Source: Candidatus Omnitrophota bacterium (GTDB taxonomy: Bacteria > Omnitrophota > Gorgyraeia > Gygaellales > Profunditerraquicolaceae). From it: a DNA stretch of 43,229 nucleotides. A program made the position numbers and the translations under genes. The notes beneath the pieces were generated by a model. It was not told where the DNA came from. It saw nothing but the letters and a program-made list of their open reading frames with translations, and did not search any database. The DNA is taken from positions 1 through 43,229 of the forward strand of contig JAUYBI010000029.1 of the NCBI GenBank assembly GCA_030693145.1, written 5' to 3'. Positions 8,465 to 42,029 of the stretch are shown piece after piece; position 1 is the first letter of the stretch, and each line of letters opens with the position of its first letter.

Positions 8465-11190
8465 TGACACAAGAGCTTAGCAAACAGTACAACCCTAAAG
8501 ATACCGAAAGTAAGTGGTATAAAATTTGGGAAGAAAATAATCTTTTTTCCGCCGCGCCATCCCCGGATAAATTACCCTATTGCATAGTTATTCCGCCGCC
8601 TAATGTTACCGGAATCCTGCACATGGGCCATGCCTTAAATAACACTATTCAAGATATTTTAATCCGTTACAAGAAAATGCGGGGTTTTGCGGCCCTGTGG
8701 ATGCCGGGTACGGATCATGCCGGAATCGCCACGCAAAATGTTGTAGAAAAAGCCCTGGCTAAAGAGGGGCTCAAACGGCAAGATCTCGGCCGGGAAAAAT
8801 TCCTGGAGAAAGTCTGGGAATGGAAGCAGCTCTACGGGACAACCATCATTAACCAGCTTAAAAAAATCGGCTGCGCCTGCGATTGGGAGCGGGCGCGTTT
8901 TACCATGGATCAAGACTATTCTTTAGCTGTCACCGAAGCCTTTGTCAGGCTTTATGAAAAAAAACTGATTTATCAAGGCCACTATATTATCAACTGGTGC
9001 CCGCGCTGCCAGACGGCGTTAAGCGATGAAGAAGCCAGCCATATTGATTTAGAAGGAAATCTTTACTACCTTAAATACCCCCTCAAGGATAATCCGCAGG
9101 AATTTATCAGTGTTGCCACTACCCGGCCGGAAACTATGCTCGGTGATACAGCCGTAGCCGTAAACCCCAAAGATAAACGCTATAAAAAATATATCGGTAA
9201 ATACCTGATTCTGCCTATAATTAACCGGCCGATAAAAATCATTGCCGATAGCATAATCGACATGCAATTCGGGAGCGGAGCGGTTAAAGTTACTCCCGCG
9301 CACGACCTCAATGATTATGCTTTAGGGAAAAAACACGGTTTGGAATTTATCAATGTCCTGGCTCCGGATGGCAGGATGAACGAATTGGCGCAAAAATTCT
9401 GCGGGCTTGAGCGCTTTAAAGCCAGAGAAGCAATATTAGAAGATTTAAAATTATTGGGCTTACTGGAAAAAATTACGCCACATACGCTCTCTGTGAAGCA
9501 TTGTTACCGCTGCAACACGATTGTAGAGCCATATTTGTCAAAACAATGGTTTGTGAAAATGAAACCCTTGGCTAAACCGGCGATTGCGGCAGTTAAAAAA
9601 GAGAAGATAAAGTTTTATCCTGCGCGCTGGACTAAGGTTTATTTAAACTGGATGGAGAATATCCAAGACTGGTGTATCTCCCGGCAAATCTGGTGGGGAC
9701 ACCGGATGCCGGTTTATTACTGTAAAAATTGCCGGGAGAAAAATCCAAAAGCCGGGATCATCGTATCCAGAATAAAACCTTCTAAATGCCCGAAATGCGG
9801 ATCAGAGAACTTAACGCAAGAAGAGGATGTCCTGGATACCTGGTTTTCCAGCTGGCTTTGGCCGTTTGCCACCTTCTATTGGCCTAAAGAAAATGCCGAC
9901 TTAAAATATTTTTATCCCACTGCAACTCTGGTTACTGCTCCGGAAATTATCTTTTTTTGGGTAGCGCGCATGATTATGGCGGGTTTTGAATTTAAACAAC
10001 AAATCCCTTTTAAAAATGTTTATATCCACGGCACGGTGCGCGACAGTCAGGGAAAAAAGATGTCCAAATCTTTAGGTAATGCGCTTGACCCCTTGGAGGT
10101 CATCGCGGAGTATGGAACAGATGCCTTACGTTTTAGCCTTATCTCGATAACTTCTCAGGGCCAGGATGTATATTTGTCTAAAGACAGATTTGAGCAAGGC
10201 AGGAACTTTGCCAATAAAATCTGGAATGCCTCACGCTTTATTCTAACTAACCTTAAGCCTGAAGATGTAAACGTAGATTTGTGCGTTTTCTTTAAACGCG
10301 AACAGCTGGATATTGTTAACCGCTGGATCTTAAGCCGTTTTTATACAACCCTGGAGAAAGTAGGCAAAGAATTAGATAATTTTAAATTCAATGAAGCTGC
10401 CAGTAGCTTGTATTCATTTTTCTGGCATGAATTCTGTGATTGGTATCTGGAATTAATTAAACCTCAAATCGGACAAAAGCAAACCCAAATAGTGATGTAT
10501 AAGGTTTTAGAAAAATACCTTAGGCTAATTCATCCTTTTATGCCTTTTATCTCCGAGGAGATTTGGCAGCGCCTTCCAGGCGCCAAAGATTCAACCCCTT
10601 CGACGCACCCCGGGCTAAAGCCCGGGGTTTGCTCAGGGTTGATGGTGAGCAAAGTCGAACCATCAATTATGCAACAAAACTGGCCGCATTTACAGAGCGA
10701 ACTAATCAATAAGCAAGATGAATTGCAGATGGAGCTGGCTTTTGAGGTGATTAATGTAATAAGAAATACGCGCGCAGAGTTAGAGGTTAACCCTGCCAGC
10801 CGTATTGATATCCAAATAAGCGTCGCAAGTAAACTTACTCAAAAATCTCTGGGGCTACTTTCAGGCTACATAAAAAATTTGGCTAAAATTAACGATTTAA
10901 CTCTAACCGAGAAATATATTGCTCAAAATAACCAATACGCGGTTGTTTTTAAGGATCTGCATATTGTCATGCCGCTTGAGGGGATCGTTAATATCGCCCA
11001 GCAGCTTAATAAAACTAATCTAAAAATTGATAAATTAAAATCCGAAATTAAAAATAAAGAGGGGATGCTGGTAAATAAAAATTTTACTCTGCGTGCCCCC
11101 GAAGAAATTGTAGAAGCAGAAAAAAATAAATTAATTGATATGCGTGAGCAGGTAAAGAAACTGGAGGCAATCAAAAATGGCTTACGCTAA
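8464..11190 (+). CDS. valS: Valyl-tRNA synthetase
   Basis: Class I synthetase charging tRNA-Val. HMGH (53-56) and KMSKS (532-536) form the ATP site; the CP1 editing domain holds the TTRPETMLGDTAV motif; cysteine pairs at HCYRCN, YYCKNC and KCPKCG suggest zinc binding; a coiled-coil C-terminal arm (about residues 840-900) ends the protein. In the anticodon-binding domain, between IWQRLPGAKD and SIMQQNWPH, about 24 residues have no counterpart in the family. They are encoded by a palindromic repeat (10595-10666) inserted in frame. The start overlaps the cimA stop; the 3' end overlaps nadC by 14 nt. Confidence 0.97.
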   Translation: MTQELSKQYNPKDTESKWYKIWEENNLFSAAPSPDKLPYCIVIPPPNVTGILHMGHALNNTIQDILIRYKKMRGFAALWMPGTDHAGIATQNVVEKALAKEGLKRQDLGREKFLEKVWEWKQLYGTTIINQLKKIGCACDWERARFTMDQDYSLAVTEAFVRLYEKKLIYQGHYIINWCPRCQTALSDEEASHIDLEGNLYYLKYPLKDNPQEFISVATTRPETMLGDTAVAVNPKDKRYKKYIGKYLILPIINRPIKIIADSIIDMQFGSGAVKVTPAHDLNDYALGKKHGLEFINVLAPDGRMNELAQKFCGLERFKAREAILEDLKLLGLLEKITPHTLSVKHCYRCNTIVEPYLSKQWFVKMKPLAKPAIAAVKKEKIKFYPARWTKVYLNWMENIQDWCISRQIWWGHRMPVYYCKNCREKNPKAGIIVSRIKPSKCPKCGSENLTQEEDVLDTWFSSWLWPFATFYWPKENADLKYFYPTATLVTAPEIIFFWVARMIMAGFEFKQQIPFKNVYIHGTVRDSQGKKMSKSLGNALDPLEVIAEYGTDALRFSLISITSQGQDVYLSKDRFEQGRNFANKIWNASRFILTNLKPEDVNVDLCVFFKREQLDIVNRWILSRFYTTLEKVGKELDNFKFNEAASSLYSFFWHEFCDWYLELIKPQIGQKQTQIVMYKVLEKYLRLIHPFMPFISEEIWQRLPGAKDSTPSTHPGLKPGVCSGLMVSKVEPSIMQQNWPHLQSELINKQDELQMELAFEVINVIRNTRAELEVNPASRIDIQISVASKLTQKSLGLLSGYIKNLAKINDLTLTEKYIAQNNQYAVVFKDLHIVMPLEGIVNIAQQLNKTNLKIDKLKSEIKNKEGMLVNKNFTLRAPEEIVEAEKNKLIDMREQVKKLEAIKNGLR
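10595..10666. repeat. In-frame palindromic element inside valS, itself nested
   Basis: 72 nt (24 codons) from CCTTCGAC to GTCGAACCATCA. The same outer sequence recurs in glyS at 35983-36029 and as a composite before apt. Compared with the glyS copy, this one carries an extra piece at 10603-10627 that contains its own perfect hairpin (10608-10616 with 10619-10627, CCCCGGGCT). The right part reads GCTCAGG, then TTGATGGTGAGCAAAG, then the end motif. Length divisible by three keeps valS open. Confidence 0.85.
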
Positions 11191-16973: not shown

Positions 16974-17019
16974 TAAACATGGGGACGGTTCTATTTTTAT
17001 AGAACCGTCCCCATGTTTT
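16974..17019. repeat. GGGGACGGTTCT REP-like hairpin after groEL
   Basis: Perfect 21-bp stem (16974-16994 with 16999-17019) and TTTT loop, built around GGGGACGGTTCTAT and its complement. The right arm ends in a T-rich run, so it can also serve as the groESL terminator. A second copy with the same GGGGACGGTTCT arms lies at 39176-39209. Sequences of this type are commonly REPs mobilised by a RAYT (IS200-like) transposase, which is not in the window. Confidence 0.88.
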
Positions 17020-17022
17020 TAA

Positions 17023-17187
17023 GACACTATAATAAACTCTGTTGACTTTTATTAATTATTAACAATAGTAGGGTGGGTTTAAACCCACCCTACTATTGTT
17101 AATAAGCCGTGTAGGGATGTTCCTGCCTACCGGCAGGCAGGTAAACCTCCCTTACTGTTGAAAGTCAACAAGGCTTGTTACATTGTC
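17023..17187. repeat. MITE-like composite element with GTTTAAAC palindromes
   Basis: 165 bp bounded by GACAC... and ...ATTGTC, with imperfect outer arms (AATAAACTCTGTTGAC... and ...GTCAACAAGGCTTGTTAC). Inside is a perfect 50-bp palindrome at 17056-17105 centred on GGGTTTAAACCC, then a second palindrome half-pair (GTAGGGATGTT ... TAAACCTCCCTTAC) split by a CCTGCC palindrome. This and the REP hairpin fill most of the 385-nt gap between groEL and the next gene. The rest of the gap holds a promoter (17213-17241) and a leader of about 90 nt in which I see no riboswitch. Confidence 0.8.
17122..17141. repeat. CCTGCC...GGCAGG palindrome nested in the composite repeat
   Basis: CCTGCCTACCGGCAGGCAGG, 20 bp. 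A near-identical 21-bp copy sits in frame in dnaE at 23418-23438. Here the flanks would rejoin as a GTAGGGAGGTTTAAACCTCCCTAC-like palindrome with two mismatches, so it looks inserted at that palindrome's centre. Confidence 0.7.
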
Positions 17188-23615: not shown

Positions 23616-23729
23616 TATTAACAATAGTAGGGTGGGTTTAAACCCACCCTACTGAAAGTCGGCAGGGTTCTTGACAACGTAGGGTTTAAACCCACCCTAC
23701 TGAAAGTCGGCAGGGTTCTTGACAACGTA
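23616..23729. repeat. GTTTAAAC palindrome with 48-bp tandem duplication
   Basis: A GTAGGGTGGGTTTAAACCCACCCTAC palindrome (core at about 23627-23652) is followed by CTGAAAGTCGGCAGGG and CTTGACAACGTA; the block 23634-23681 is repeated exactly at 23682-23729. The AGTCGGCAGGGTT part matches the flank of the other GTTTAAAC elements. Sits in the 239-nt gap between dnaE and the HU gene; just upstream, ACGTTGAGCAGGTAACGTTGAG (23585 on) carries a short ACGTTGAG direct repeat. Confidence 0.85.
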
Positions 23730-29844: not shown

Positions 29845-29858
29845 AACACTTTTAATAA

Positions 29859-30000
29859 TAGTGTAACAAACCTTGTTGACTTTTTACAGTAGGGGAGGTT
29901 TAAACCTCCCCTACAGCTTATTAACAATAGTAGGGTGGGTTTAAACCCACCCTACTGTAATTGATAATTAATAAAAGTCAGCGGAGTTTGTTTTAATGTC
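29859..30000. repeat. MITE-like element with two GTTTAAAC palindromes
   Basis: Imperfect outer arms (GTAACAAACCTTGTTGACTTTT on the left; AAAAGTCAGCGGAGTTTGTT and AATGTC on the right) enclose palindromes at 29889-29914 (GTAGGGGAGGTTT arms) and 29929-29956 (AGTAGGGTGGGTTT arms). It fills the gap between recO and panE. No promoter for panE is clear within it. Confidence 0.8.
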
Positions 30001-30019
30001 CTTTTAATTGGGAGGTTAA

Positions 30020-33343: not shown

Positions 33344-34168
33344 ATGAACACTGTAGAAATAATCGCTTTAAAAAACAAACGAAAAATAACTATGCTGACT
33401 GCCTATGATTATCCCATAGCTAGCCTGGTGGATAAAGCCGGGATTGACATAATCTTAGTCGGTGACTCTTTAGCCAATGTCGTTTTAGGGCTGGAATCCA
33501 CCACCCAAGTGGGAATGCCGGAAATGCTGCACCATGCCAAAGCGGTAAACCGAGGGGTAAAAAACGCCCTGCTGGTCGGCGATATGCCGTATAGCGCTTA
33601 TCAACTCAACCCCGATGAAAGCCTGGCCAACGCCCAAAGATTTATCGTTGAGGCTGGCTGCCAGGCAGTTAAGCTTGAATGGTTTGATAATTGCCTGCAG
33701 GTAACTGAACAAATTATCCAGGCGGGGATCCCGGTGATGGGCCATATCGGCTTAACCCCGCAAACCGCGGATAAAATTGGGGGTTTTAAGTGCCAGGGAA
33801 AAGATGCCCAGGCCGCTAAGCGCTTAATTGACCAGGCCAAAGAGCTGGAAAAGAAAGGATGCTTTGCTATAGTCCTGGAGTGCCTGCCGGATAAAATTGC
33901 CGAACTGATTACTAAAGAAATAAAGATTCCCACCATTGGTATCGGCTCCGGAATTCATTGTGACGGACAGGTGTTAGTAATTAATGACCTGCTCGGTTTA
34001 TTTGAGCGTTATACCCCAAAATTTGTTAAAAAATACGCCAATCTTTCCGGCGTAATATTAGAGGCTGTTGAGAATTTTAAAAATGAGGTGCTTCAGGAAA
34101 AATTTCCCGCTCCCGAGCATTCTTTTACCATTAAAGAAGAGGAGCTAAAGAAAATCCATGGCTGCTAA
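33344..34168 (+). CDS. panB: 3-methyl-2-oxobutanoate hydroxymethyltransferase
   Basis: Adds a hydroxymethyl group from methylene-tetrahydrofolate to ketoisovalerate, the committed step to pantothenate. 274 residues. MLTAYDYPIASLVDKAG, ILVGDSLANVVLG (metal-binding Asp), GDMPYSAYQ, and GHIGLTPQ are family blocks; VKLEWFD and CDGQVLVINDLLGL follow. The GIGSG substrate loop is present. Starts 1 nt past mgtE; its end overlaps the next gene by 11 nt. panC is not in the window. Confidence 0.95.
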   Translation: MNTVEIIALKNKRKITMLTAYDYPIASLVDKAGIDIILVGDSLANVVLGLESTTQVGMPEMLHHAKAVNRGVKNALLVGDMPYSAYQLNPDESLANAQRFIVEAGCQAVKLEWFDNCLQVTEQIIQAGIPVMGHIGLTPQTADKIGGFKCQGKDAQAAKRLIDQAKELEKKGCFAIVLECLPDKIAELITKEIKIPTIGIGSGIHCDGQVLVINDLLGLFERYTPKFVKKYANLSGVILEAVENFKNEVLQEKFPAPEHSFTIKEEELKKIHGC

Positions 34169-34883
34169 GCGTCGTAAGCGCTTCGCTAAATATTTAAGCC
34201 GCACGATCGCTATGGTTATTGCTTTGGCGTTTGTTATTAAATTCGCCGGGCCGAATCTCTTAAGGCAATATATCAGTTATGGCGTCGGCAACTGTAAAAC
34301 TACTCCCATACTCTGCATGCAGCCCGAAGAAAAAGTATTTACTCCCGAAATTGACAGCGTTTATCTGGACACCTTGGCCTGGAGCGCGTTCCCCAGAATG
34401 GGGATCAGCGCGCCTAAGCGGTTTACTTTAATCCAGGAGTTAATTAAGAAGCAATACTATAAAAAAAGACGTGGCAATAAGAAAGCGGTTATCTATTTAC
34501 TCTTCCAGGAACCGGGAGCTTTTATTAAACTTTATCCGCAGGTACAAAAACAGGGAGTCACCAACAACCATGAATTCATCCGCCGCCTGATGTATGCCCA
34601 TCTAAACCAAATAAACAATATTACCGATACTTTTTTTGTAATCATGAAAAGCGTATTTACTCCGGATGTGGGGAATCAGAGTACCGCTAAAATGATTAGA
34701 TTCCAACTCCATAATCTAAAGGGTTTCATTAACTACTCCATGTCTAAACCGGATAATTATTTTGATTGCAATGTTTTTGATGATGCGGGAAATTTCTTTA
34801 AAGTGTATATAAAAGATATCGGCGCGCAACTGAACCTAAATAATGTATTCGCAATAATCTCCACCCTTAAGCCAATTCAGTAG
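34158..34883 (+). CDS. Uncharacterised membrane-anchored protein
   Basis: 241 residues, family not recognised. A very basic N-terminus (KRRKRFAKYLSR) precedes one hydrophobic stretch (about residues 18-33), giving a signal anchor with the rest probably outside the cytoplasm. Two cysteines at about 45 and 52 (NCKTTPILCM) might form a disulphide. The remainder is mixed alpha/beta with a KKRRGNKK patch and no catalytic motif I can name. The start overlaps panB. The stop codon TAG at 34881-34883 lies within a GTTTAAAC palindromic repeat starting at 34879, so the present C-terminus may be set by repeat insertion. Confidence 0.7.
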   Translation: MAAKRRKRFAKYLSRTIAMVIALAFVIKFAGPNLLRQYISYGVGNCKTTPILCMQPEEKVFTPEIDSVYLDTLAWSAFPRMGISAPKRFTLIQELIKKQYYKKRRGNKKAVIYLLFQEPGAFIKLYPQVQKQGVTNNHEFIRRLMYAHLNQINNITDTFFVIMKSVFTPDVGNQSTAKMIRFQLHNLKGFINYSMSKPDNYFDCNVFDDAGNFFKVYIKDIGAQLNLNNVFAIISTLKPIQ

Positions 34884-34943
34884 GGTGGGTTTAAACCCAC
34901 CCTACTATAATTGATAAAAGTCGGCAGAGTTTATTGTAATGTC
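34879..34943. repeat. Half copy of the GTTTAAAC element overlapping a stop codon
   Basis: Perfect 28-bp palindrome at 34879-34906 (AGTAGGGTGGGTTT arms) followed by the right flank ATAATTGATAAAAGTCGGC and AGAGTTTATTGTAATGTC. The left flank found in other copies is missing; the upstream gene abuts directly and takes its stop from the repeat. A short TGTCATCTTG repeat follows (34940-34963). Together with that, it fills most of the gap to glyS. Confidence 0.85.
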
Positions 34944-35011: not shown

Positions 35012-36364
35012 ATGGCTGAAAATTTAATGGATAAAATTGTTTCCCTGTGTAAGCGCCGGGGATTTATTTTTCAAGGCAGCGAAATTTACGGCGGGCTGGC
35101 CAATACCTGGGATTACGGCCCTTACGGAGTAGAATTAAAAAACAACCTTAAACGCGCCTGGTGGAAAACCAATGTCCAGGAGCGCAATGATATCTTAGGC
35201 ATGGACTGCGCCATCCTGATGCATCCGGGAGTCTGGGAAGCCAGCGGCCATGTGCATAATTTTTTTGATTTAAAAAGCGACTGTAAAAACTGCAAAAAAC
35301 GTTTTAAAAGCGCTGACCTTAAAGATACCGCTAAATGCCCCGAATGTTCCGGTGAGCTTACCAAAGCCCGGCCATTTAATCTTATGTTTAAGACTTACCA
35401 GGGGCCGGTGGAAGAAACCGGAAACCAAATACACCTGCGCCCGGAAACAGCGCAGGGGATGTTTGTAAATTTCTTAAATATCCTGGACTCCCGCCATCCT
35501 AAACTTCCTTTTGGCCTGGCTCAAATCGGAAAATCATTCCGTAATGAAATTACCCCGGGTAATTTTACCTTCCGCACCCGGGAATTTGAACAGATGGAAA
35601 TCGAGTATTTTGTTAAGCCTCAAGACGCCGATCAAGCGCTGGAAGAATGGATTCAATTGCGTTTTGATTGGTATTTAGCTTTAGGGATGAAAAGCCAAAA
35701 TTTAAGAAAACGCCAGCACGGTAAAGATGAACTGGCGCATTACGCCCACGCCTGCATGGATGTCGAGTATAATTTCCCTTTCGGCTGGGCGGAACTGGAG
35801 GGGGTTGCTAACCGTTCGGATTTTGATTTAAAACAGCACGCTCAATACAGCGGCAAAGATTTACAATATTATGACGATACCGCTAAAGAAAAGTTCTACC
35901 CTTATATTATTGAACCCTCCGGAGGCGTTGACCGGGCAGTCTTGGCTTTTTTAATTGATGCCTACCAAGAAGAACAAGTCAATCCTTCGACAAGGCTCAG
36001 GATTGATGGTGAGCAAAGTCGAACCATCAAAGAAGATACCCGCGTGGTCTTAAAATTAAATAAGGAGCTGGCCCCGGTCAAAGTAGCCATCTTTCCGCTC
36101 TTGCGCAACCGGCCGGAAATTGTGGAGCTGGCTAAGAAAATCTCGCGGGATTTAAAAAAATCTTTTGCCGCGATTTATGATGACACCGGTTCCATCGGTA
36201 AGCTCTACCGCCGGCAAGATGAGGTAGGCACACTCTACTGCGTAACCGTGGATGTGCAAACGCTGGAAGATAAACAGGTAACGGTGCGCGATCGCGATAG
36301 CATGCAACAAGTAAGAATTTCAATAGATAAATTAAAAGAATATTTAGTCAACCAACTTAGTTAA
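35012..36364 (+). CDS. glyS: Glycyl-tRNA synthetase, dimeric type
   Basis: Class II synthetase of the single-chain alpha2 (eukaryote/archaea-like) type, 450 residues, so only this gene is needed. FQGSEIYGGLANTWDYGPYG opens the catalytic core; CKNCKKR and CPEC form a zinc-like knuckle; LRPETAQGMFVNF, SFRNEITPG and FRTREFEQMEIEYF cover motif 2; EPSGGVDRAVLAFL is motif 3. Next comes the anticodon-binding domain, but between EEQV and KEDTRVVLKL there are 16 extra residues (NPSTRLRIDGEQSRTI) encoded by a palindromic repeat. The frame is kept and all motifs are intact, so the enzyme is presumably active. Confidence 0.97.
   Translation: MAENLMDKIVSLCKRRGFIFQGSEIYGGLANTWDYGPYGVELKNNLKRAWWKTNVQERNDILGMDCAILMHPGVWEASGHVHNFFDLKSDCKNCKKRFKSADLKDTAKCPECSGELTKARPFNLMFKTYQGPVEETGNQIHLRPETAQGMFVNFLNILDSRHPKLPFGLAQIGKSFRNEITPGNFTFRTREFEQMEIEYFVKPQDADQALEEWIQLRFDWYLALGMKSQNLRKRQHGKDELAHYAHACMDVEYNFPFGWAELEGVANRSDFDLKQHAQYSGKDLQYYDDTAKEKFYPYIIEPSGGVDRAVLAFLIDAYQEEQVNPSTRLRIDGEQSRTIKEDTRVVLKLNKELAPVKVAIFPLLRNRPEIVELAKKISRDLKKSFAAIYDDTGSIGKLYRRQDEVGTLYCVTVDVQTLEDKQVTVRDRDSMQQVRISIDKLKEYLVNQLS
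35983..36029. repeat. In-frame palindromic element inside glyS
   Basis: Runs TCCTTCGACAAGGCTCAGG, then ATTGATGGTGAGCAAAG, then TCGAACCATCA. The same element lies in valS (10595-10666, with an extra nested piece). In glyS the right half is read in a different frame from valS, showing that at least two frames of the element are open. Confidence 0.85.
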
Positions 36365-36375
36365 GTTATTAACAA

Positions 36376-36405
36376 TTGTAGAGGAGGTTTAAACCTCCTC
36401 TACAA
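36376..36405. repeat. GTTTAAAC palindrome, core only
   Basis: Perfect 30-bp palindrome with arms TTGTAGAGGAGGTTT, 11 nt after the glyS stop and 29 nt before ppdK. It lacks the long flanks seen in other copies. A preceding TTATTAACAA is the usual neighbour. No T run, so it is not a standard terminator. Confidence 0.85.
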
Positions 36406-39175: not shown

Positions 39176-39209
39176 GGGGACGGTTCTCCTAGCTAGGAGA
39201 ACCGTCCCC
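39176..39209. repeat. GGGGACGGTTCT REP-like palindrome
   Basis: Perfect 34-bp palindrome without loop: GGGGACGGTTCTCCTAG and its complement. It shares the GGGGACGGTTCT arm with the hairpin after groEL, but has a different tip. Ten nt after ppdK and 12 nt before the sigma-factor gene; no T run follows. Confidence 0.88.
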
Positions 39210-41976: not shown

Positions 41977-42029
41977 GACATTGTAATAAACCCTGCGAAC
42001 TTTTATCAATTACAGTAGGGGAGGTTTAA
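41977..42029. repeat. Left half of a GTTTAAAC element, broken by an IS
   Basis: GACATTGTAATAAACCCTGC, then AACTTTTATCAATTACAGTAGGGGAGGTTTAA in order (shown in two parts), matches the left flank and left arm of the other elements. Where the palindrome should continue with ACCTCCCCTAC it breaks to AGGCTGTGCGCC, the start of the IS1182-like element. Confidence 0.85.

Follow-up and report, generated by a model that had tools for sequence, protein, structure and literature searches.

Probable nesting of two mobile repeats, a REP-like hairpin and a MITE, in a Candidatus Omnitrophota genome

The window analyzed here, a stretch of 43,229 nucleotides (contig C47 of a 1.8-Mb genome assembled in 75 contigs), carries several perfect palindromes centered on TTTAAA, some of them framed by matching outer arms. 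A first-pass annotation had assigned these palindromes to a single MITE-like family with full, half, and core-only copies, and they raise the question of whether the palindrome is merely the interior of a MITE or a repeat in its own right.

RESULTS

The six loci of the window

The TTTAAA-centered repeat was present at all six loci where it had been proposed, although at the last of them only a left arm and half of the palindrome were found. The window contains seven copies of GTTTAAAC where 1.33 would be expected, and this count was not reached in any of 100 shuffles. Two of the loci are complete elements. The first is a MITE of 165 bp (17023-17187) with terminal inverted repeats (TIRs) at 17023-17049 and 17161-17187, whose flanking 8-mers match at only 5 of 8 positions. 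It contains a 50-bp palindrome with 100% complementary arms (17056-17105, with a 26-bp core at 17068-17093) and a second, degenerate unit (17111-17155) whose center is interrupted at 17122-17141 by CCTGCCTACCGGCAGGCAGG. The latter is a palindromic repeat of another kind, inserted at the center of GTTTAAAC palindromes in the same arrangement at C38:70049 and C25:922. The second is a MITE of 144 bp (29857-30000) with TIRs at 29857-29883 and 29974-30000 and two cores (29889-29914 and 29930-29955), and it is bounded by the target-site duplication CTTTTAAT on the left (29849-29856) and on the right (30001-30008).

The remaining loci are partial. At 23616, a half MITE has the core GTAGGGTGGGTTTAAACCCACCCTAC (23627-23652), and a 48-bp perfect tandem duplication (23634-23729) carries half a palindrome and a divergent TIR (TACGTTGTCAAGAACCCTGCCGACTTTCA, minus strand). 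The half MITE at 34880-34943 consists of a core (34880-34905) and a right arm that extends to 34943; the TAG within its GTAG at 34880 is the stop codon of the ORF at 34158-34883, so that the description of all loci as intergenic does not hold here. The palindrome GTAGAGGAGGTTTAAACCTCCTCTAC (36378-36403) stands alone, without MITE arms. Finally, the half MITE at 41977-42029 is made up of a left TIR (41977-42003) and the half palindrome GTAGGGGAGGTTTAA (42015-42029), followed by an unrelated repeat. The sequence continues from 42030 onward as AGAGGCTGTGCGCCAAT, and an identical junction is found in contig C16 of the same genome near 21860; at both junctions a further repeat seems either to have entered the palindrome center or to have become joined to it.

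The outer arms belong to a MITE

Positional statistics were obtained from 580 kb of the own genome, chosen around copies, together with whole-genome pattern searches. The search of these 580 kb for outer arms returned 23 copies with paired ends, 87 to 165 bp long, and many single-ended ones. A 27-bp TIR consensus, GACAKTRTAAYAAACYYTGYTGACTTT, fits all 23 paired copies when up to 6 mismatches are allowed. Direct repeats of 8 bp flank 9 of the 23 copies at 7 or more matching positions (5 perfect, 4 at 7/8), the perfect ones being CTTTTAAT in the window and TAAATAGA, CGATCACT, AAAAAAAT, and ATTTGATG elsewhere, whereas the control with mismatched (permuted) flanks gave no match at one mismatch or fewer, nor did any other offset. 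Moreover, the copy at C40:42447 has an empty counterpart site in the sister genome G006. As far as the outer arms are concerned, the MITE proposed by the first-pass annotation is confirmed: the element is non-autonomous, its ends agree among copies, both full and half copies exist, and the target duplications are genuine. The element is concentrated in its own species and a few relatives, as MITE ends matched 70 times in the own genome, 16 times in G006, 7 times in G014, and 0 to 2 times in the other 24 genus members.

A transposase with matching terminal repeats was not found in the 27 genus genomes. Nor did the own genome and its 26 congeners contain two TIRs separated by about 1-3 kb, as an autonomous partner would show; these assemblies are incomplete and fragmented, so that such a partner may have been missed. 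The duplications show that the MITE moved by a transposase that makes 8-bp staggered cuts, and this transposase is probably unlinked to it. Bacterial MITEs of the RUP, NEMIS, ERIC, and Nezha type likewise are non-coding, 70-300 bp long, intergenic, and bounded by TIRs and target duplications, with half copies. In contrast to them, the element described here has an 8-bp duplication, a TIR that was not placed in a named family, a parent transposase that was not found, and a core that is an independent hairpin repeat.

The palindrome is a phylum-wide repeat

The inner palindrome is a 26-bp perfect palindrome of the form GTAG-N6-YTTAAR-N6'-CTAC. The pattern GTAGNNNNNGTTTAAACNNNNNCTAC has 203 copies in the own genome, and the same pattern written backwards has none. 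When the generalized pattern GTAG-N6-YTTAAR-N6-CTAC was searched in 384 sampled Omnitrophota genomes, it was found in 74 of them, distributed over 55 genera, with at most 203 copies per genome, and the reversed-pattern control gave mostly 0 and at most 2. A collection scan with the two main arm types returned at least 73 stretches, and all the matches listed were from Candidatus Omnitrophota. The palindrome center varies by lineage (TTTAAA, CTTAAG, and others), and the copy number ranges from 0 to 203 inside one genus, most sampled members of which have none. Some copies stand by themselves or in tandem, others occupy the loops of a second hairpin repeat, and still others are in-frame parts of genes.

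No published description of this palindrome was found in the literature searched. A viral origin was considered and rejected, the five IMG/VR matches being isolated and imperfect palindromes. Assignment to a known RNA was likewise discarded, as the Rfam matches in the window were two tRNAs only.

Complementarity of the arms

Perfect palindromes account for 43 of the 68 distinct cores, even though the search pattern does not demand complementary arms. Across the arms 94.3% of the cells were paired, with 146 double-sided changes compared with 43.7 in shuffles, of which none of 500 reached as high a value; the four outer base pairs are set by the search pattern and are uninformative in this respect. 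Sliding the partner by one column lowered the pairing to about 34-40%. The arms differ among lineages yet remain complementary, and concerted change can also be followed between orthologs. The palindrome at C73:11279 and its ortholog in G006 (L114), whose flanks are 90-94% identical, differ by one base pair that has changed on both sides, and further cases were observed between L137 and L117/L113 and, in an rfbB-type gene, between G015 and its relatives.

Such double-sided changes fit selection for a hairpin, but they also fit template-switch repair between the arms; complementarity may therefore be maintained by hairpin selection, by template switching during replication, or by both. Template switching is a known process, reported to make and keep hairpin arms (PMC8794818, PMC8604942). 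It is possible, if doubtful, that the arms and their compensatory changes come purely from such quasipalindrome correction at replication and that the hairpin has no selected role. The similar flanks of the orthologous copies with double-sided changes favor this explanation. However, GTAG/CTAC and the central TTAA are fixed while the rest of the arm varies (the pattern itself fixed those positions), and the spread of the copies requires mobility anyway.

A putative DnaA box beside the palindrome

Outward from CTAC, after two or three nucleotides, some copies carry TGTGGATAA (TTATCCACA on the other strand), which matches the consensus DnaA box. A perfect box at this offset was found in 10 of 151 own palindromes and in 16 of the 62 palindromes taken from outside the own genome and KR13, and almost none at the other offsets from 0 to 24. 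A set of 33 palindromes from the phylum, fetched regardless of the box and overlapping little with the earlier sample, had the box (one mismatch at most, offset 2-3) in 10 cases, whereas the background frequency, 0.67 per kb with both strands counted, predicts about 0.04. The box thus lies 2-3 nucleotides outside the palindrome in about one-quarter to one-third of the copies from other Omnitrophota, and in some instances (L088, L126, G312:C27, and G250:C1) it is present on both sides. The commonest flank in the own genome, TTATTAACA, is two bases away from the box word. Because the same 9-mer, together with a second near-match, is located upstream of the own dnaA gene, it is reasonable to read the word beside the palindrome as a putative DnaA box.

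The possibility that the box was a pre-existing target was rejected, since in three boxed cases (C38:22838, C45:28343, and L098:1171) the counterparts that lack the palindrome also lack the box, although the gaps have diverged; it would seem that element and box move together. There is a precedent in the ABC primosome, where E. coli DnaA loads the helicase at a single-stranded DNA hairpin whose stem contains or adjoins a DnaA box (PMC6127211). That A-site was assayed as a defined template together with E. coli proteins, whereas the repeats described here are dispersed and known from sequence. A speculative and rather unlikely extension is that of a phylum-wide mobile hairpin with the ancestral form AGTTATCCACA-N2/3-GTAG...TTAA...CTAC-N2/3-TGTGGATAACT, which would exploit DnaA or the single-stranded DNA of the fork for its spread, or would provide dispersed A-site-like helicase-loading sites. 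The fixed spacing of TTATCCACA and its occurrence upstream of dnaA would also agree with a replication role for scattered hairpins bound by DnaA, either as titration sites or as initiation sites on single-stranded DNA similar to the A-site. We regard this role as quite improbable, given that a perfect box accompanies so few of the own copies, most of which have TTATTAACA or none, and that most sampled genus members do without any such palindrome.

Presence and absence between sister species

A site in G006 could be located for 52 of the own palindromes, and the core was kept in 27 and absent in 25. Conservation at orthologous sites, named by the first-pass annotation as evidence against mobility, therefore applies to about half of the copies that could be located there. 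The cleanest insertion is one of 40 bp into the loop of a GGGGACGGTTCTATTTTT hairpin (C45:21267), and a second, of about 30 bp, is at C45:14404; these were the only two clean minimal insertions seen. In other absent cases (C38:53769, C45:28343, C1:8785, C40:51753, and C38:22838) a different hairpin repeat occupies the same gap in the sister genome. No target duplication was detected for lone palindromes at any boundary tested. The palindrome has probably spread as a DNA segment of only about 26-50 bp that does not duplicate its target and that settles between genes, in hairpin loops of other repeats, and now and then inside a gene.

Another inverted repeat, GGGGACGGTTCT...AGAACCGTCCCC, is common in the genome and lies in the window at 16980-17017 and about 39176-39209. 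Its loop is a recurrent home of the GTTTAAAC palindrome and, in L097, of yet another repeat.

Palindromes at and inside genes

About 8 of the 252 palindromes surveyed (about 3%) lie inside apparent genes, where they are read as (R/S)RGGLNLPY. They include an rfbB-type epimerase/dehydratase gene in several genomes, and the other palindrome-bearing genes, labeled from their translations, encode a putative GltB, an OppF-like protein, and others. The shared reading frame was discarded as a signal: it is expected of survivors because only that frame is open, the other two holding TAG or TAA stops. The same rfbB loop contains other in-frame inverted repeats in G023 and G014, and the repeats in this variable loop differ by species (G000:C73:13073, L083, L114, L130, L166, and L172); the loop may be a site tolerant of hairpin insertions. 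Rickettsia palindromic elements similarly lie in frame inside functional genes (PMC3733652, PMC10969869), but they are about 150 bp long, compared with 26 bp, the RGGLNLPY reading, and the small in-gene fraction observed here. Separately, a 36-nt repeat, GCTCAGGRTTGATGGTGAGCAAAGTCGAACCATCAA, occurs with 97% identity inside two coding regions of the window (10631-10666 and 35995-36030).

Most palindromes are between co-directional genes and nearer to the upstream stop (82 of 125), their stability is about -20 kcal/mol, and at several sites the sister species has another kind of hairpin repeat instead, all of which could suggest selected RNA hairpins (terminators or 3'-end protectors) at gene ends rather than mobile DNA. 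This is very unlikely: the flank list has no T-run after the palindrome, as an intrinsic terminator (GC hairpin plus T-run at gene 3' ends) would show, 15 copies are in divergent regions and 1 in a convergent region, and the copies inside genes, the 25 of 52 sites that lack the core in the sister species, and the range of copy numbers within one genus also argue against it.

The palindrome beyond the MITE

The MITE inner arms TATTGTTAATAA, TGTAATTGATAA, and TGTTGAAAGTC are recognizable beside most palindromes of the own genome, and half copies are common. In G020, however, 35 palindromes are accompanied by no MITE arm, and in G015 there are 47 palindromes and two weak arm matches. Because palindromes with few or no arms exist in many genomes, the core-only copies, taken initially as decay products, are so in some cases and not in all. 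It is highly improbable that one MITE family accounts for everything, each palindrome being a decay product or internal fragment of a TIR-bounded element: the spread over 55 genera, the lone copies flanked by TTATCCACA, the in-frame gene copies, and the unrelated flanks all speak against it, and the arm-free genomes contradict it, except if the phylum ancestor already had the MITE and all other lineages lost it. The palindrome constitutes a separate REP-like hairpin element, broader than the MITE and independent of it.

DISCUSSION

Taken together, the results probably reflect two nested mobile repeats, a REP-like hairpin inside and a MITE, bounded by 27-bp TIRs and confined to the own species and a few relatives, outside. 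The MITE-like family proposed initially stands as a mobile family with decay products and MITE outer arms, but the GTTTAAAC palindrome is more than its interior. Indeed, the palindrome is the more interesting object, a phylum-wide, GTAG-ended, TTAA-centered hairpin repeat with a DnaA-box neighbor at a fixed spacing that ties the family to the replication initiator. A short hairpin repeat that is kept strictly palindromic across a candidate phylum, and that in one lineage is found at the heart of a transposon, shows directly how composites arise from REP-like and MITE-like elements, and the orthologous double-sided arm changes are natural material with which to separate hairpin selection from template-switch repair.

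Among the closest known counterparts of the palindrome are the GTAG-tagged REPs and REPINs with RAYT (REP-associated tyrosine transposase, or TnpA-REP), which are also high-copy palindromes of 20-40 bp with GTAG at the end, have varying complementary arms, and are mostly intergenic, forming clusters and dimers with occasional intragenic copies (PMC3733652, PMC8266576). The 203 copies and the 26-bp core agree with this description. In published GTAG REPs the tetranucleotide is unpaired at one end and the loop is mostly of 2-3 nt (PMC3733652), whereas here GTAG is symmetric and base-paired with CTAC in all cores, a separate loop is absent, the TTAA center is fixed, and a DnaA box may flank the element. 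TnpA-REP uses GTAG and the hairpin and cuts at CT (PMC8266576). By analogy, and in line with what has been proposed for GTAG REPs, the palindrome would most likely move as a single-stranded hairpin that an HUH (Y1) transposase encoded elsewhere processes in trans. The unpaired GTAG of known REPs weighs against this analogy, as does the fact that Y1 genes do not track the palindromes.

A RAYT as dedicated mobilizer was considered and rejected, with neither correlation nor close bracketing in the own genome and the genus. Y1 transposase genes are present in 27 of 27 genus genomes, including those without palindromes; G015, with its 47 palindromes, has a single Y1 gene of a length class also found in palindrome-free genomes, and none of the Y1 genes examined was closely bracketed by palindromes of this family. 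In several genomes of the genus, palindrome-bearing and palindrome-free alike, a Y1 gene of about 243 aa (the G000:C73:9650 class) is located within a few kb of rfbB, and in the own genome it also adjoins tyrS; this transposase looks domesticated. Another Y1 gene, at G000:C43:6553-7190 (L046), lies between TCTAACCWGGTTAGA palindromes, which are apparently the small repeat pair of that gene.
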